Shown here piece by piece: positions 1-34,677 of a DNA stretch of 40,347 nt (the stretch's first letter is position 1; each line of letters opens with the position of its first letter). Source of the DNA: Fusobacterium sp. DD2 (GTDB taxonomy: Bacteria; Fusobacteriota; Fusobacteriia; Fusobacteriales; Fusobacteriaceae); assembly GCF_018205345.1 (NCBI RefSeq), contig NZ_JADRHM010000015.1:1-40347 (forward strand). Reading direction: 5' to 3'. The position numbers were made by a program, and so were the translations under genes. A model generated the notes under the pieces. That model was not told the DNA's origin. It saw nothing but the letters and a program-made list of their open reading frames with translations, and made no database searches.

Positions 1-17
1 TCACGTGGTTTTTTTGA

Positions 18-230
18 CATTTCGCGTACTTAAAACAACACAAAATTATAAAACCTGCTCAATATTACTACCCACAAGAGATATCACAAAAGCTTTTACA
101 AAAGATGTTAATAGACCAAATGGAAGGTGTTAAAACTTCAGAACTTGTAGAAATATTTGAAGTGTCATTAGAGTCAATTAGAAGAGATTTTGATGCTTTA
201 AAAAAGGAATTGAAATTATTAACTAAATAG
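18..230 (+). pseudogene. C-terminal fragment with DeoR-type helix-turn-helix
   Basis: The reading frame is open from an in-frame TGA at 15-17 to the TAG at 228-230. It ends in a segment that reads like a DeoR-family DNA-binding helix (SELVEIFEVSLESIRRDFDA, then LKKELKLL). The same frame carries protein-like sequence before the TGA, and the first ATG in the open part is only at 105, which would give 41 residues without a clear ribosome-binding site. It is therefore most likely the broken 3' end of a gene that starts outside the window, perhaps from a mobile element or regulator. A 41-residue HTH protein from 105 is the alternative. The parent gene is not recognised. Confidence 0.4.
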
Positions 231-436
231 AAAAGAGGCTGGTGCATTTTTAAAACTGTAAAAATAAAATTCTCGGCATTAGAAATTGTTTCGTAATTTA
301 TGAAGCGAAACAGAATAACGAAAATCCGACTGTTTGAACGAAGTGAGTTTCGGATTTTCTTTCTGTGAGCAATATTAATAGAAAGAATTTATAGCTTAGA
401 GAATTATACTTTTTACAAATTTGCACAGCCTCTTTT
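231..436. repeat. Foldback element, copy A
   Basis: A ~206-bp element that fills the gap between the upstream stop codon (228-230) and the stop of the convergent gene (439-441). Its ends are inverted: AAAAGAGGCTG (231-241) pairs with CAGCCTCTTTT (426-436), and the helix continues TGC/GCA across a one-base bulge. Inner helices are GTAAAAATAAAATTCT (258-273) with a matching segment at 400-416, GTTTCG/CGAAAC around 288-311, and GAAAATCCGA (320-329) with TCGGATTTTC (350-359). The core is about 90% identical to copy B at 2986-3190, while the terminal arms differ yet still pair. It encodes no protein. It may be a bidirectional terminator, a structured RNA or a miniature mobile element. Confidence 0.75.
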
Positions 437-438
437 AT

Positions 439-987
439 TTATTGTCTTATTAACTTTTTAACAGCTTTATTTAGCTCTTTATTCCCTTTGATTTTTACCA
501 GTTTTGAGATTAACCAGTTTAAATTTTCATCATCTAAAGATAGCTCTTCTTTTACATACTCTTCAAGCTTTTCAACCTCTCCTGGAAGCAGTCTGTATCT
601 TGTACTGTTATTGATCTCTTCTATTGTCTTATCACTTGATAGATAAGCAGTTATCTTTTTCCAGTTTTCTAAAAGCTCAACTTTTCTAACGAGCATAACT
701 ACAGTATAATTAAGCTCAGGAATATGATCAAAACCTTTTCTTTTAAGAAATGTCTTTACTACATCTCCAGCCTTTTCAGTATCAGTAAGAACCTCACCGA
801 CTTTTTTAGTATTCATTATCTTAGGCATTTTTGATGTGTGACCAGTATTTCTTAGGTATTTTGACATTGGAATAACTTTACTTGCATGGTAGAAGTCCAT
901 AGCAAATTCATTAAATGTCATACCTTCTGGAACCGTTCCCTGCTCTATATGCTCAATATATTCATCAACTTTTTTAAAGTCTACCAT
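439..987 (-). CDS. Hypothetical protein, 182 aa
   Basis: I do not recognise the family. The product is predicted soluble, lysine- and glutamate-rich and mostly helical, with no signal peptide or membrane segment. A motif-like stretch near residues 40-60 (PMSKYLRNTGHTSKMPKIMN) precedes a charged helical C-terminal half. The ATG at 987 is followed immediately by coding sequence and preceded by a purine-rich GAGGTG a few bases upstream. The gene is divergent from the pseudouridine synthase at 1119 and ends three bases from foldback element copy A, which probably serves as its terminator. It could be a conserved lineage-specific protein. Codon use matches its neighbours, so there is no sign of recent transfer. 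Confidence 0.7.
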   Translation of the reverse strand: MVDFKKVDEYIEHIEQGTVPEGMTFNEFAMDFYHASKVIPMSKYLRNTGHTSKMPKIMNTKKVGEVLTDTEKAGDVVKTFLKRKGFDHIPELNYTVVMLVRKVELLENWKKITAYLSSDKTIEEINNSTRYRLLPGEVEKLEEYVKEELSLDDENLNWLISKLVKIKGNKELNKAVKKLIRQ

Positions 988-1062
988 TATTACAACACCT
1001 CAATTAAACTTAACGTATATTTATTATAACGCAAATAACAAAATTTCTCAACTTAAAATACA

Positions 1063-1091
1063 TTTATTTGGTCCAAAATATATGGTATAAT
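1063..1091 (+). promoter_or_regulatory. Candidate promoter for the pseudouridine synthase
   Basis: A perfect -10 box TATAAT (1086-1091) is preceded by TGG, giving an extended -10. A weak -35 TTTATT (1063-1068) lies 17 bp upstream. The ATG at 1119 follows a GAAAGGA ribosome-binding site. Confidence 0.5.
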
Positions 1092-1118
1092 GGGGTAAAA
1101 TAGAGAAAGGACAATGAT

Positions 1119-1799
1119 ATGAGATTAGATAAATTTTTAGTAGAATGTGGAATTGGAAGCAGAAAAGAGGTTAAAAAACTAATTTCTGATAAACAGATTA
1201 CAGTTAATGGAAATGTTATAGTTTCACCAAAAGAAAATATAGATGAGATAAATGATGAGATTAAATATGCAGGAGAAAAGTTGGAATATAAAGAATTCAG
1301 ATATTATATTCTAAATAAAAAAGCTGGATATATCACTGCAGTAGATGATCCAAGGGATAGAACAGTAATGGAGCTTCTACCTGACTGGGTAATAAGAAAA
1401 GATTTAGCTCCTGTTGGAAGACTGGATAAAGATACAGAAGGATTACTTCTTTTAACAAATGATGGGCAGCTGAACCACAAACTTTTATCTCCTAAGAGTC
1501 ACGTTGAGAAAAAATACTATGCTGAGCTTGAAAAAGAGATATCAGAAGAGGATATAAAAAAACTTGAAGCTGGAGTTGATATAGGTGGTTATATTACTAT
1601 GCCAGCAAAGGCAGAAAAAATTGATGAGAAAAAAATATTTCTTACAATTAAGGAAGGAAAATTCCATCAGGTGAAAAAAATGCTTGAAGCAGTAGGTAAT
1701 AAAGTAATTTATTTAAAAAGAGTAAGTTTTGGGAAATTAGAGCTAAAATCACTCATGTTAGGAGAGGTAAAAGAAATTAAAATCTATGATATAGTATAG
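1119..1799 (+). CDS. RsuA/RluB-family rRNA pseudouridine synthase
   Basis: The 226-residue protein has the RsuA/RluB/E/F layout. An S4 RNA-binding domain covers residues 1-47 (MRLDKFLVECGIGSRKEVKK), followed by the catalytic domain. The signature GRLDKDTEGLLLLTNDG starts at residue 100, and Asp103 is the expected nucleophilic aspartate. The KFHQVKKML segment near residue 181 is the conserved C-terminal motif. Family members convert specific rRNA uridines to pseudouridine. Length matches RsuA (about 230) and RluB better than the larger RluA group, but whether the target is 16S or 23S rRNA cannot be told from sequence alone. The ATG follows GAGAAAGGACA at a suitable distance. The gene is followed 38 bp later by the recombinase on the same strand. 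Confidence 0.92.
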   Translation: MRLDKFLVECGIGSRKEVKKLISDKQITVNGNVIVSPKENIDEINDEIKYAGEKLEYKEFRYYILNKKAGYITAVDDPRDRTVMELLPDWVIRKDLAPVGRLDKDTEGLLLLTNDGQLNHKLLSPKSHVEKKYYAELEKEISEEDIKKLEAGVDIGGYITMPAKAEKIDEKKIFLTIKEGKFHQVKKMLEAVGNKVIYLKRVSFGKLELKSLMLGEVKEIKIYDIV

Positions 1800-1837
1800 T
1801 TTTATAATTAATATAATAGGACTTTTTAGGTGATAAA

Positions 1838-2827
1838 ATGGATATTATAAAAAAAGAAGAGACACGATTAGATTTACCCAGAAGAAAGAAAAGGAGAAAA
1901 GAGAATAAGAAAAGTATTTTTGAAATGTATCGTTCTCCTAAAACATTAAAAGACTACTTCTTTTATTTAAATGATTTTCTTCTATATATATACGACAGTG
2001 ACAAACCTATACAGAATGAAGAGGTTATAGATCTTATGACAGATATAACTGAAGAGGATGTAGAAGATTATCTATCCCATCTGTTATATGAGAGAAATCT
2101 CAAAAAGACATCTGTAAACAAGATTATCTCAGCGTTAAAGTCACTATATAAAGAATTAGAAAAACATGGAGTTCAAAACCCTTTTAAGTTTGTAAAATTA
2201 TTTAAGACTTCAAGAAATATAGATAATATCCTTAAAGTCTCGTTTGAGGATATAAAAGAGATATTTGAAAATTATAAAGTCTATAACGAAAAAGATTATA
2301 GAAATGTTATTATACTTTATACTCTTTTCTATACTGGAATGAGAAGCCAGGAGCTTATAACACTGAAGTATTCCAATATATTGTCAAGAGATAACAATTA
2401 CTTTATAAAGCTTGAAAAGACTAAAAGTGGAAGAGAACAGTATAAACCACTCCATGAAATATTAGTTGAAAAAATCGGTGAGTATAAAAACTATGTTATG
2501 GGGATGTATAATTACTCTCCAGAAGAGATGGAAGATATGTTTGTATTCCCAAGCTCTTACGAAAAAAATTCTCAGTTGTCTTATAAGGCACTTTATAAAA
2601 TTATTCAGGATATGGGTAAAGTAATTAACAAGGAAATCAGCCCTCACAACATCCGTCATGCTATTGCAACTGAATTATCTGCAAATGGAGCAGATATTTT
2701 GGAAATAAGGGACTTTTTAGGTCATGCCGATACCAGGGTAACAGAGGTTTACATCAACGCCAAATCATTACTGGATAATTCGGTAGTTGATAAGATACCT
2801 AAGTATTTACACAATAAGGACAATTAA
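1838..2827 (+). CDS. Tyrosine recombinase / site-specific integrase (XerC/D-like)
   Basis: A 329-residue tyrosine recombinase. A lysine/arginine-rich stretch (residues 5-25) precedes a SAM-like core-binding domain (about 28-125). The catalytic domain shows all expected residues: Arg169 in TGMRSQE, a lysine in KTKSGRE (194-200), His270 and Arg273 in SPHNIRHA, His296 in LGH and the nucleophile Tyr305 in VTEVYIN. Size and the LGHADTRVTEVYI box resemble XerC/XerD/XerS and chromosomal integrases rather than phage integrases with long arm-binding domains. No excisionase or phage genes adjoin it, so it may be a housekeeping Xer-type or stand-alone recombinase. The ATG is preceded by TTAGGTGATAAA. 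AT-rich palindromes lie just downstream. Confidence 0.88.
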   Translation: MDIIKKEETRLDLPRRKKRRKENKKSIFEMYRSPKTLKDYFFYLNDFLLYIYDSDKPIQNEEVIDLMTDITEEDVEDYLSHLLYERNLKKTSVNKIISALKSLYKELEKHGVQNPFKFVKLFKTSRNIDNILKVSFEDIKEIFENYKVYNEKDYRNVIILYTLFYTGMRSQELITLKYSNILSRDNNYFIKLEKTKSGREQYKPLHEILVEKIGEYKNYVMGMYNYSPEEMEDMFVFPSSYEKNSQLSYKALYKIIQDMGKVINKEISPHNIRHAIATELSANGADILEIRDFLGHADTRVTEVYINAKSLLDNSVVDKIPKYLHNKDN

Positions 2828-2985
2828 ATAGTTAATTTTACCTGATTATTTACTACAATTAATAAATATTATACAAATAAAAATTATTTAAATAATTTAG
2901 TTAGATATAATTAATATTATATGAACTTTAAATATTAATCTTTAATTACTAATAATTATTTCAAATAATTTTACCAAATAAAGCT
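2828..2985. other. AT-rich intergenic region with two related palindromes
   Basis: No gene is visible. Two palindromes share the core AATTATTT-n-AAATAATT: AAATTATTTAAATAATTT at 2881-2898 is an exact 18-bp palindrome, and AATTATTTCAAATAATT at 2954-2970 has 8-bp arms around a C. They lie 56 bp apart between the recombinase and foldback element copy B. They could be protein-binding sites, recombination sites or simply products of very AT-rich sequence. Confidence 0.4.
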
Positions 2986-3190
2986 AAAGGGACTGTTACA
3001 TTTTTAAAACTGTAAAAATAAAATTCGCGATATTAGAAATAGTTTCATAATTTATGAAGCGAAACAGAGTACTGAAAATTTGACTGTCTGAACGAAGTGA
3101 GTTTCAAATTTTCTTTCTGTAAGCTAAATAAATAGAAAATATTTATACCTGAGTGAATTTTATTATTTACTATTTTTTAACAGTCCCTTT
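2986..3190. repeat. Foldback element, copy B
   Basis: The second copy of the element at 231-436, with the same orientation and core. The terminal arms form a perfect 13-bp helix: AAAGGGACTGTTA (2986-2998) with TAACAGTCCCTTT (3178-3190), followed by T residues on the plus strand. Inner helices are GTAAAAATAAAATTC (3012-3026) with GAATTTTATTATTTAC (3155-3170), TTCATAA/TTATGAA around 3044-3058, and GAAAATTTGA (3074-3083) with TCAAATTTTC (3104-3113). It ends four bases before the nagA stop codon and lies between convergent genes, as copy A does. It may terminate nagA transcription. Confidence 0.75.
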
Positions 3191-3194
3191 TTTA

Positions 3195-4334
3195 TTAAGC
3201 CTCTTTTCCTTTTGCAATAACTTTTTCAACTTGTAAATCTTTATTTAAAAATACAATGTCAGCATAACATCCTGGTTGTAATTTTCCATATTCATTTTCA
3301 AGTCCTATTGCTTTTGCTGGATATAAAGTTGCCATTCTAATTGCTTCTTCTAAAGTAATTCCACAGTGAGCAACAAGATTTCTTACTCCTGCATCCATAG
3401 TAAGTGCAGAACCACCTAATGTTCCATCTTCTCCAAAGCATTTACCATTTTTATAATAAACCTTTCTTCCTTCAAAGAAGAAGTATTCCATCTCTGTTCC
3501 AACAGGAGATACAGCATCTGTAACTAAATACAATCTCTCTCCCATTATTTTAATAGCTGATTTTATTGCAGAGAAATGAGAGTGGAAACCATCAACAATT
3601 ACTCCTGCACAAAGATCACTATCAAATATAGTTCCTACTGCACCTGGTGCTCTATGAGCAAATGAAGACATTCCGTTAAATAGGTGAGTTGCAAGTGTTA
3701 TTCCATAGCTTTCTTTTTCTTTTAACTCTTCATAAGTTCCATTAGTATGTCCTAATGCTACGTTTATTCCTGCTTTATGCAGTTTAGCTATAACTCTTCC
3801 ATCTGTTCTTTCAGGAGCAAGAGTTAATATTCTTACATTTTCCTTACCTGATTTAATAATTCTATCTATCATCTTATCATCTGCAGGTCTTATAAATTTT
3901 TCATTGTGAATTCCTTTTTTCTCAACTGAAATATAAGGTCCTTCTATATGTAATCCTAATACCCCATATTCTTTTTTATCTATACCTTCCATTAATTCTA
4001 ATGCCTTTAGAATATTTTCATCAGTTGTTGTTATAAGAGTTGGAGTAAAAGATGTACATCCATATTTAAGGTTTGTCTTATACATTGTTTCTACACCTTT
4101 AATAGAAATCTCATCATTAAAAAGGATTCCTCCACACCCATTTATTTGTAAATCTATAAAACCAGGTACAACATAATTATGCCCAGCATCAATTTTGTCA
4201 ATTCCAGGATATGCCTCATCTAATCTATCTTGAGAAACAATATCCTCAATTTTATCTTGATTAATAACTAAAGCTTTTCCCTCATAAAACATATTTCCTA
4301 AGAAAACGTCCCCATTTATGATTGCTTTTCTCAT
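3195..4334 (-). CDS. nagA: N-acetylglucosamine-6-phosphate deacetylase
   Basis: NagA removes the acetyl group from GlcNAc-6-phosphate to give glucosamine-6-phosphate and acetate in the cytoplasm, feeding NagB. The 379-residue protein shows the amidohydrolase features of the family: PGFIDLQINGCGG (57-69), the metal ligand Glu131 in LHIEGPYIS, His195 in ALGHTNGTY, His216 in THLFNGM, and the catalytic Asp in YLVTDAVSP near residue 273. Length is typical (about 380). The ATG follows AAGGAGAAAAT. It is the last gene of an apparent operon with the radical SAM gene, the RpiR regulator and nagB; the nagB stop is 12 bases upstream. Foldback element copy B follows its stop. Confidence 0.95.
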   Translation of the reverse strand: MRKAIINGDVFLGNMFYEGKALVINQDKIEDIVSQDRLDEAYPGIDKIDAGHNYVVPGFIDLQINGCGGILFNDEISIKGVETMYKTNLKYGCTSFTPTLITTTDENILKALELMEGIDKKEYGVLGLHIEGPYISVEKKGIHNEKFIRPADDKMIDRIIKSGKENVRILTLAPERTDGRVIAKLHKAGINVALGHTNGTYEELKEKESYGITLATHLFNGMSSFAHRAPGAVGTIFDSDLCAGVIVDGFHSHFSAIKSAIKIMGERLYLVTDAVSPVGTEMEYFFFEGRKVYYKNGKCFGEDGTLGGSALTMDAGVRNLVAHCGITLEEAIRMATLYPAKAIGLENEYGKLQPGCYADIVFLNKDLQVEKVIAKGKEA

Positions 4335-4346
4335 ATTTTCTCCTTA

Positions 4347-5174
4347 TTATTTGTTAGAATCGTAGATTTCTTTTAATAATCTATCGCTATCTAGGTTATT
4401 TTTTTCAATATCTTTAAAGTATCTGTAAGTTCCAACTTTTAATTCAGAACAAGCTGCTTCGTCAGATACAATTATTCCGTTTCTATGTAGTTGAAGAGCT
4501 GATATTGTCCACATGTGATTTACTCCTTCTTCAATTCCATAGTGTAATGCTCTTGCTTTGTTAGCTCCTGTTACCATTATTAATACTTCTTTAGCATCAA
4601 GAATAGTTCCTACTCCTACTGTTAGAGCTAATTTAGGTACTTTGTTAATATCTCCACCAAAGAATCTTGAGTTAGCTATTATTGTATCCATAGTTAAGTC
4701 TTTATCTCTAGTTCTAGAAGATAATGAAGATCCAGGTTCGTTAAATGCTATGTGTCCGTCTGGTCCAATTCCTCCTAAGAATAGATGTATTCCACCATAA
4801 GATTTTATTTTTTCTTCATATCTTTCACATTCAGCTTTATAATCTTTTGCTGTACCATCTAAGATATTTATATTTTCTTTTTTAATATCTATATGGTCGA
4901 AGAAGTTTTTATGCATATAGTAGTGGTAGCTTTGGTCATTGTCTGGAGTTAATCCTACATATTCATCCATGTTAAATGTTACAACGTTTTTGAAAGAAAC
5001 AATTCCATCTTTATTCATTTGAATTAATCTTCTATACATTGCAAGTGGTGTTCCTCCAGTTGGAAGTCCTAGTACAAATGGTCTATCCTCAGTTGGTTTA
5101 AATTCGTTAATCTTTCTTGCTACATATACTGCAGCCCAATCCCCTACACTTTTATCTGTAATTATTACTCTCAT
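4347..5174 (-). CDS. nagB: Glucosamine-6-phosphate deaminase
   Basis: NagB converts glucosamine-6-phosphate to fructose-6-phosphate and ammonium, sending amino sugars into glycolysis. The 275-residue length matches the family (about 240-280). Visible motifs are [15 protein letters not shown] near residue 40, [10 protein letters not shown] near 67-76 with the catalytic Asp, and [17 protein letters not shown] near 134-150 with the catalytic His. The long C-terminal tail is like that of NagB proteins that may be allosterically controlled by GlcNAc-6-phosphate, but this is not shown. The ATG follows GAGGAGGAAACAAAA. It sits 30 bases after the RpiR-type regulator and 12 before nagA, so the three are probably co-transcribed. 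Confidence 0.95.
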
Positions 5175-24282: not shown

Positions 24283-24460
24283 CTCCTCCCGTCCCCGCAG
24301 GATAGTCAAATATTTTTTAAGAAAGGTCTCCTGACTTAGATTCATCCTACTCATATCCCCTTCCCAATTTCTCAGTGGGCCTATGATACTTTCGTCATCA
24401 ACACAGTGGCGGGACCGTATAAGATTTTCACTTAATTCCCTTTTACTTAAAAAAACTGCA
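24283..24460 (-). ncRNA. Cobalamin riboswitch
   Basis: The minus strand carries the conserved cobalamin aptamer elements in order: a GGGAATTAAGTGAAAATC segment (24439-24422), the B12-box core GGTCCCGCCACTGTG (about 24416-24402), and AAGTCAGGAGACCT (about 24336-24323), followed by a GC-rich segment (24303-24283) that may form the regulatory loop. It sits between a promoter (24480-24509) and cbiP, so it senses the end product of the operon. The aptamer boundaries are approximate. The 5' GGUGCC-type arm is not clear. Confidence 0.93.
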
Positions 24461-24479
24461 TACTTATATATTTTACATT

Positions 24480-24509
24480 ATTATACTCTATATGCATCAA
24501 TTACGTCAA
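24480..24509 (-). promoter_or_regulatory. Promoter of the cobalamin operon
   Basis: TTGACG (24509-24504) and TATAAT (24485-24480) on the minus strand are 18 bp apart. Transcription would start near 24473, just upstream of the aptamer. Confidence 0.8.
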
Positions 24510-29725: not shown

Positions 29726-29742
29726 AATTAAAAGCTAATAAC

Positions 29743-29785
29743 AACAGATACAAAGCATTTTAATGCTATGCATCTGTTTTTTATT
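29743..29785 (+). terminator. Terminator of the Bax-like gene
   Basis: AACAGAT (29743-29749) pairs with ATCTGTT (29772-29778), with an inner AGCATT/AATGCT stem, followed by a T run. It lies 18 bases after the stop. Confidence 0.8.
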
Positions 29786-29837
29786 TATTTAATCATTTTT
29801 TATATATTTGATTATCGGACTTAATATGTTTTTAAAA

Positions 29838-29865
29838 TAAAAAGGCTGTTGAAAATACAACAGCC
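29838..29865 (-). terminator. Terminator of the thiamine operon
   Basis: On the minus strand GGCTGTTG (29865-29858) and CAACAGCC (29851-29844) form a perfect 8-bp stem, followed by TTTTTATTTT. It lies nine bases after the thiE stop. Confidence 0.9.
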
Positions 29866-29874
29866 CTTCGTTAT

Positions 29875-34531: not shown

Positions 34532-34576
34532 ATAATCCAAATTAATATAAGTTAAAATATATTAAAGTAATTATCT

Positions 34577-34662
34577 TGCTTCCCTACGCTGGTATTATCC
34601 ATATCAGGTTCTAAGGGTCAGGACCGTATCCTTCTCAGCCAATTGGCTCCCCTAGCAAACTA
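34577..34662 (-). ncRNA. TPP riboswitch (THI element)
   Basis: The minus strand shows the full aptamer: CTAGGGGAGCC, GGCTGAGAAGGAT, ACGGTCCTGACCCTT, AGAACCTGATATGGATAAT and ACCAGCGTAGGGAAGC. The key elements CTGAGA, ACCTGAT and GGATAATACCAGCGTAGGGAA are intact. It lies upstream of thiC with its own promoter and a terminator before the gene, so it controls the whole thiCSGHFE operon. Confidence 0.97.
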
Positions 34663-34677
34663 TTCTTTTCATTCGCT

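Follow-up and report, generated by a model that had tools for sequence, protein, structure and literature searches.

A dispersed fusobacterial hairpin element with covarying stems and an apical tip found across bacterial phyla

Bacterial miniature inverted-repeat transposable elements (MITEs), of which ERIC, Correia/NEMIS, RUP and YPAL have been reviewed together, are small (100-250 bp), non-coding, dispersed and intergenic, form a long stem-loop when single-stranded, and carry family-specific ends, usually with TA termini and target duplications (PMC2229807). Repetitive extragenic palindromic (REP) elements with RAYT/Y1 transposases are palindromic, orientation-specific and widely distributed; they measure 20-40 bp, the foot of the hairpin carries GTAG or CGTC as an unpaired tag, and many of them lie close (<20 bp) to the 3' ends of convergent open reading frames (ORFs) (PMC3733652). 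Here we describe a palindromic foldback element of ~205 bp that occurs twice, as copy A and copy B, in a stretch of 40,347 nucleotides from Fusobacterium sp. DD2 (assembly GCF_018205345.1, contig NZ_JADRHM010000015.1, positions 1 to 40,347; the whole stretch is called the window below). Like MITEs, the element is short, non-coding, multicopy, dispersed and intergenic and forms a long stem-loop when single-stranded; like REPs, it is palindromic, orientation-specific and widely distributed and lies at the ends of convergent genes. Its ends are inverted repeats. Unlike those of MITEs, these ends vary between genomes, no target duplication accompanies them, and conservation falls on the tip of a hairpin that recurs across phyla. 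Unlike REPs, it ends in GAGGCTGTTGCA, has no GTAG or CGTC tag on a 20-40 bp hairpin, has a conserved tip, and resides in a genome from which the Y1 transposase is absent. Because it departs from REPs in size, foot tag and transposase, and from MITEs in target duplication, we do not file it as a member of either class.

Two further comparisons concern parts of the element. Bidirectional intrinsic terminators of convergent genes have, as the element does, GC-richer arms with an A-tract before and a T-tract after them, and abut stop codons, but they enclose a loop of 3-10 nt where the element has a structured domain of ~180 nt with covariation throughout. The d(GCGNAGC) mini-hairpins with a GNA loop (N, any base), such as the phage N4 hairpin promoters and sites in phiX174/G4, share with the element's tip the form R-C-GNA-G-Y with a free N and its expected stability in single-stranded DNA; these are isolated sites, whereas the element's tip lies, in many copies, within a 22-mer that stays fixed while the long stems below it vary. 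A search of open-licence papers, by string and by concept, returned no description of the element, which is weak evidence of novelty. The explanation that we favour, with moderate confidence, is an old non-autonomous palindromic mobile element whose tip would be what is recognised, in single-stranded form, and which has been kept in this genome as two-way terminators.

A dispersed family of covarying hairpins

Both foldbacks lie exactly where the original prediction, made from the letters of the window, had placed them (Table 1), and its claims about pairing are correct to the base: the outer arms differ between the copies and still pair, and the inner helix of copy A is related to that of copy B by two compensatory C-G to T-A changes. 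The identity of the two copies, which it had put at about 90% in the core, is lower when measured, at 84% over 191 ungapped nucleotides or 82% by BLAST. Folded from end to end, copy A reaches -61 kcal/mol (z -5.9) and copy B -57.5 kcal/mol (z -6.7), and none of 200 shuffles folded as well as either copy.

The further copies that it had proposed to look for exist in number. In the host assembly (2.36 Mb, 155 contigs), BLAST with copy A found 41 copies at 81-90% identity, plus ten more short matches in which arms match their own complements, and a search with the apical loop allowing at most two mismatches gave 43 matches. Thirty-nine copies were aligned over the core, with pairwise identities of 80-99% and a mean of 90%, which makes the family in this genome mostly old. 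No relatives of the window element were found in the phage and plasmid collections searched.

This 39-copy alignment yields a single long imperfect hairpin, of which 50 pairs were tested for covariation with shuffle and slide controls. Standard pairs occupy 98.4% of the cells, and 15 of the 50 pairs are altered on both sides; one of them is split evenly between A-U and U-A (19 copies each), and a second has U-A in 23 copies, C-G in 16 and no intermediates. The covariation score was 0.138 against 0.075 for shuffled alignments (0 of 500 shuffles as high), and slid partners gave at most 0.053. The structure was drawn from the tested alignment, which inflates the percentage paired but not the compensatory changes under shuffling. 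Pairing in the family is thus under constraint, and the predicted selection on folding is supported by covariation above all shuffled and slid controls, both within this genome and across phyla (see below).

In a few copies of this genome (L029, L060 and L064) the core stands without arms, and core and arms are therefore separable. L064, on contig C7, consists of two tandem cores ~170 bp apart, with the usual arms missing.

Table 1 Positions and parts of the two window copies and of a related short hairpin (window coordinates).
Feature	Position	Strand	Remarks
Copy A, foldback element	231..436	+	Between + strand ORF ending at 230 and - strand gene 439-987
Copy A, 5' outer arm GAGGCTG	235..241	+	A-tract just before
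Copy A, 3' outer arm CAGCCTC	426..432	+	T-tract just after; terminator-like
Copy A, inner helix, 5' strand GAAAATCCGA	320..329	+	
Copy A, inner helix, 3' strand TCGGATTTTC	350..359	+	
Copy A, apical 22-mer ACTGTTTGAACGAAGTGAGTTT	329..350	+	Mini-hairpin AC-GAA-GT inside; portion common to several phyla
Copy B, foldback element	2986..3190	+	Between XerC/D-like gene 1838-2827 (+) and nagA 3195-4334 (-)
Copy B, 5' outer arm GGGACTGTTA	2989..2998	+	
Copy B, 3' outer arm TAACAGTCCC	3178..3187	+	Then T-tract
Copy B, inner helix, 5' strand GAAAATTTGA	3074..3083	+	
Copy B, inner helix, 3' strand TCAAATTTTC	3104..3113	+	
Copy B, apical 22-mer ACTGTCTGAACGAAGTGAGTTT	3083..3104	+	
Short terminator-like hairpin GGCTGTTG-AAAATA-CAACAGCC	29844..29865	+	Element's arms without core

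One apical tip on unrelated stems across phyla

Among 98 Fusobacteriota genomes, 31 have the tip of the hairpin, ACTGTYTGARCGNAGYGAGTTT, in a slightly shorter form. The tip also occurs in at least 120 stretches of other genomes, where chance predicts ~0.9 for the whole collection; these genomes belong to Bacteroidota, Bacillota, Pseudomonadota, Nitrospirota, Patescibacteria, Gastranaerophilales and more. It consists of a GNA triloop closed by a C-G pair and an R-Y pair, with GA on each side. In single-stranded DNA, loops of the C(GNA)G type are known for exceptional stability, and the neighbouring GA/GA can form sheared pairs. The R-Y pair covaries (GC 95, AT 12, GT 2, AC 0) and N may be any base, under a search pattern that admitted all four R/Y combinations.

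Almost every copy of the tip sits on a complementary stem of its own. Among 94 flank pairs there are 92 different adjacent 8-mers, and at least six of the eight flanking pairs are Watson-Crick in 85%, against 3% with swapped partners. In a gap-free alignment of 66 sequences, tip-flank covariation was 0.940 versus 0.200 shuffled and at most 0.205 slid. Copies per genome number 50 in Ralstonia, 46 in Arcicella, 36 in a Peptococcaceae metagenome-assembled genome, 17 each in Cellulophaga and Alkalibaculum, 14 in Anaerocolumna and 1-14 in others, and the reversed control pattern gave 0 or 1 matches in these counts. The spread is patchy, with an exact tip match in 9 of 395 Bacteroidota and, at the sensitivity used, in 0 of 5,426 E. 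coli genomes; the tip is also present in two viral contigs and five plasmid records. The Arcicella copies are nearly identical, ~240 bp long and bounded by one set of inverted termini, and they lie at unrelated sites, which suggests that they spread recently. From genome to genome the tip is the same and the termini are unrelated. At two loci of Alkalibaculum sporogenes (L288 and L295), tip-bearing copies adjoin long CTTTGT-type tandem repeats, and at two others (L296 and L297) the 3' arm is apparently split by other inserted sequence beginning CCCGCAATAACAGGCAC.

Some copies in other phyla carry a second hairpin module, which the window family does not have. The motif CTTGAx, followed by a stem with the loop xTCAAG (where x is T, A or C and is matched by its complement), occurs in 25 of 123 other-genome copies, mainly in Bacteroidota and Ilyobacter, and in 0 of 675 shuffled ones; its start usually lies 47-51 nt past the tip. 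A looser test found back-pairing of the loop over at least 5 bp in 42%, versus 17% with swapped loops. By eye, the Ilyobacter and Bacteroidota copies also agree in starting with GGC-ATTG and in having a GCGTTAAG/TTTAGC internal loop. This module and the common layout suggest common descent of the copies in these two groups across phyla, and the back-pairing loop of the second hairpin may form a pseudoknot.

Strand-specific mismatches and the folded form

A change from C-G to T-A passes through either T-G or C-A; on the + strand the T-G wobble is tolerable and C-A is not, and on the - strand the reverse holds. Inner helices of the copies in the window's genome contain 32 G-T against 4 A-C cells, and the outer arms 11 against 5, a weaker bias that is as expected if the arms alone serve both strands. 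Across 100 copies of other genomes, scored with every mismatch type penalised alike, there were 50 G-T versus 21 A-C cells (p=0.0008) and 61 G-A versus 12 C-T. The bias was present in both groups of copies split by neighbours, at 38 vs 17 (p=0.006) when both flanking genes oppose the element and at 12 vs 2 when they run with it; gene directions came from a simple longest-ORF caller, for which the sign is trusted and the exact counts less so.

These counts divide what the original prediction had offered together, folding as RNA or as a DNA cruciform. The pairing constraint stands, but a two-stranded cruciform is disfavoured, because both strands would have to fold and the mismatches tolerated are those stable on the + strand alone. 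Read-through mRNA is an insufficient account as well, since the wrong strand would be transcribed where the flanking genes oppose the element and the bias is still there. This leaves a hairpin of single-stranded DNA, or an RNA that is made independently.

The second of these is the main rival to the tip-recognised mobile element, and we consider it rather unlikely. It would be a structured non-coding RNA family, transcribed from the + strand under a promoter of its own and perhaps mobile, whose tip and, in other phyla, back-pairing second hairpin would bind a conserved protein. Such an RNA would account for a bias of the G-U type on one strand and for the better folding of + strand than of - strand RNA in 36 of the 39 copies in the window's genome, but promoters near the copies are not in excess (24 found, 23.6 expected) and orientation to the neighbouring genes has no sense bias. 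Where the genes are tandem in the other-genome set, 37 copies run against them and 11 with them by the longest-ORF calls, and the annotated copies on the Ilyobacter polytropus megaplasmid lie 3 with and 3 against their neighbours. The CTTGAx module and the excess of loop back-pairing also speak for an RNA; the module is, however, absent from the window family, single-stranded DNA can form a pseudoknot too, and no Rfam family corresponds to the element. Searches with Rfam 15, at gathering and relaxed thresholds, gave at or near the elements just chance matches below gathering scores. Elsewhere in the window, a cobalamin riboswitch (24304-24481, - strand) and a thiamine pyrophosphate (TPP) riboswitch (34564-34663, - strand) score above the Rfam gathering level.

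Convergent gene ends and a possible mobile origin

Among the 26 copies in the window's genome for which both neighbours were called, 21 lie between convergent and 5 between tandem genes, with none between divergent ones, and the element commonly ends ~10 nt or less from stop codons. Within the window, 3 of 40 junctions are convergent and the element occupies two of those three. The outer arms (GAGGCTGTTGCA/TGCAACAGCCTC) form a terminator-like stem, with an A-tract to their left in 32 of 39 copies (composition alone predicts ~6%) and a T-tract to their right in 29 of 39 (~15% predicted), and so present the hairpin and T-tract at gene ends that mark intrinsic terminators. The third convergent junction of the window (29726-29874), flanked by glucosaminidase and thiE-like genes, holds the short hairpin listed last in Table 1. 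Related genomes have short hairpins with the element's arms too, those of one genus without an apical match among them.

At the site orthologous to copy A, one relative (G008) has a short AAAGACTGTTACA-ATAGAAGTT-TGTAACAGTCTTT hairpin and four relatives have a different terminator-like hairpin; none of the relatives examined has the element at homologous flanks of copy A or copy B. Short hairpins of the form CTGTTRCA...TGYAACAG are found across several genera (genomes G008, G009, G018, G019, G030, G031, G072, G073, G077 and others), also in some Fusobacteriota genomes that do not have the long element, and look like a common terminator type. The - strand gene beside copy A encodes a 182-amino-acid protein that is conserved in 12 of 12 genomes of the genus searched and has no Pfam match.

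Target-site duplications are not in excess, either for the copies of this genome or for the recent Arcicella copies, and a search for an autonomous partner through the Arcicella termini returned none, all terminus pairs being ~220-280 bp apart. A Y1/RAYT transposase was considered as the current agent and rejected, being absent from the genome, and its presence in the phylum does not track copy number.

On the explanation that we favour, the core hairpin with its + strand tip would be the recognition structure. The tip would act in the single-stranded state of the + strand, for which a DNA hairpin is the most likely form, and a putative trans-acting factor would handle this hairpin and would in the past have spread the element. 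The outer arms with their A- and T-tracts would provide convergent genes with an intrinsic terminator that serves both directions, and because of this proposed use the copies would be tolerated and retained at their places.

Several points weigh against this explanation. Transposition itself was not observed; PF01797 (Y1/RAYT transposase) has 0 matches in the window's genome, which is 99.95% complete, and clustering of the genes around ~120 loci gave one ABC-type cluster, with no enzyme linked to the elements and no gene family recurring beside them. The cells of one genome's alignment are not independent events, the excess of G-T by itself cannot tell DNA from RNA, the stability of the GNA triloop as DNA is general knowledge, and the possible pseudoknot in other phyla would fit an RNA. 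Efficient termination at the copies is not assured, and a simple terminator scan of positions 1-4400 found none because the 'loop' of ~180 nt is far from the short loop that such a scan looks for. The relatives compared differ partly in gene order and did not include a closely related strain giving a clean filled/empty pair, so that their sites are supportive and not clean empty sites.

Another possibility is that the copies are domesticated bidirectional terminators only, with the inner hairpin as a passive loop and the compensatory changes produced by template-switch correction of imperfect palindromes instead of selection, which we regard as improbable. Template switching can copy one arm of a palindrome onto the other and so make arms match without selection, but correction of this kind gives no cause for the preference for + strand mismatches. 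The convergent position and the A/T-tracts agree with a terminator, yet the Ilyobacter copies are not at terminator positions, and one 22-mer tip frozen on unrelated stems across phyla goes unexplained; by this common tip the account is already weakened. Least probable of all, in our view, is a tip that is the site of a host factor acting in replication or repair on single-stranded DNA (e.g. priming or hairpin protection) and was acquired independently by many unrelated selfish palindromes, which would suit the same tip with unrelated termini in each genome and a one-strand bias independent of transcription, but not the patchy spread in Bacteroidota and E. coli or the layout common to Ilyobacter and Bacteroidota copies, which argues for common descent, and for which a leading/lagging preference is not established (positions were read by eye in two genomes with assumed origins).

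Returning to the tip-recognised mobile element, we tentatively propose that the copies in many phyla may form a super-family of mobile hairpin elements, new to description and defined by a universal single-strand tip instead of by their ends, which would be moved or maintained in trans by a widely present putative factor while stems and termini vary and keep pairing. Recognition of small bacterial repeats normally goes by their ends, and a tip-recognised family with arbitrary stems over many phyla would be a departure from this; if true, it implies machinery for mobility or maintenance that is new to science. The 22 nt with complementary flanks provide a simple search key for such elements. 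In the Fusobacterium genome, the same reading may explain how a selfish hairpin was turned into punctuation between facing genes.

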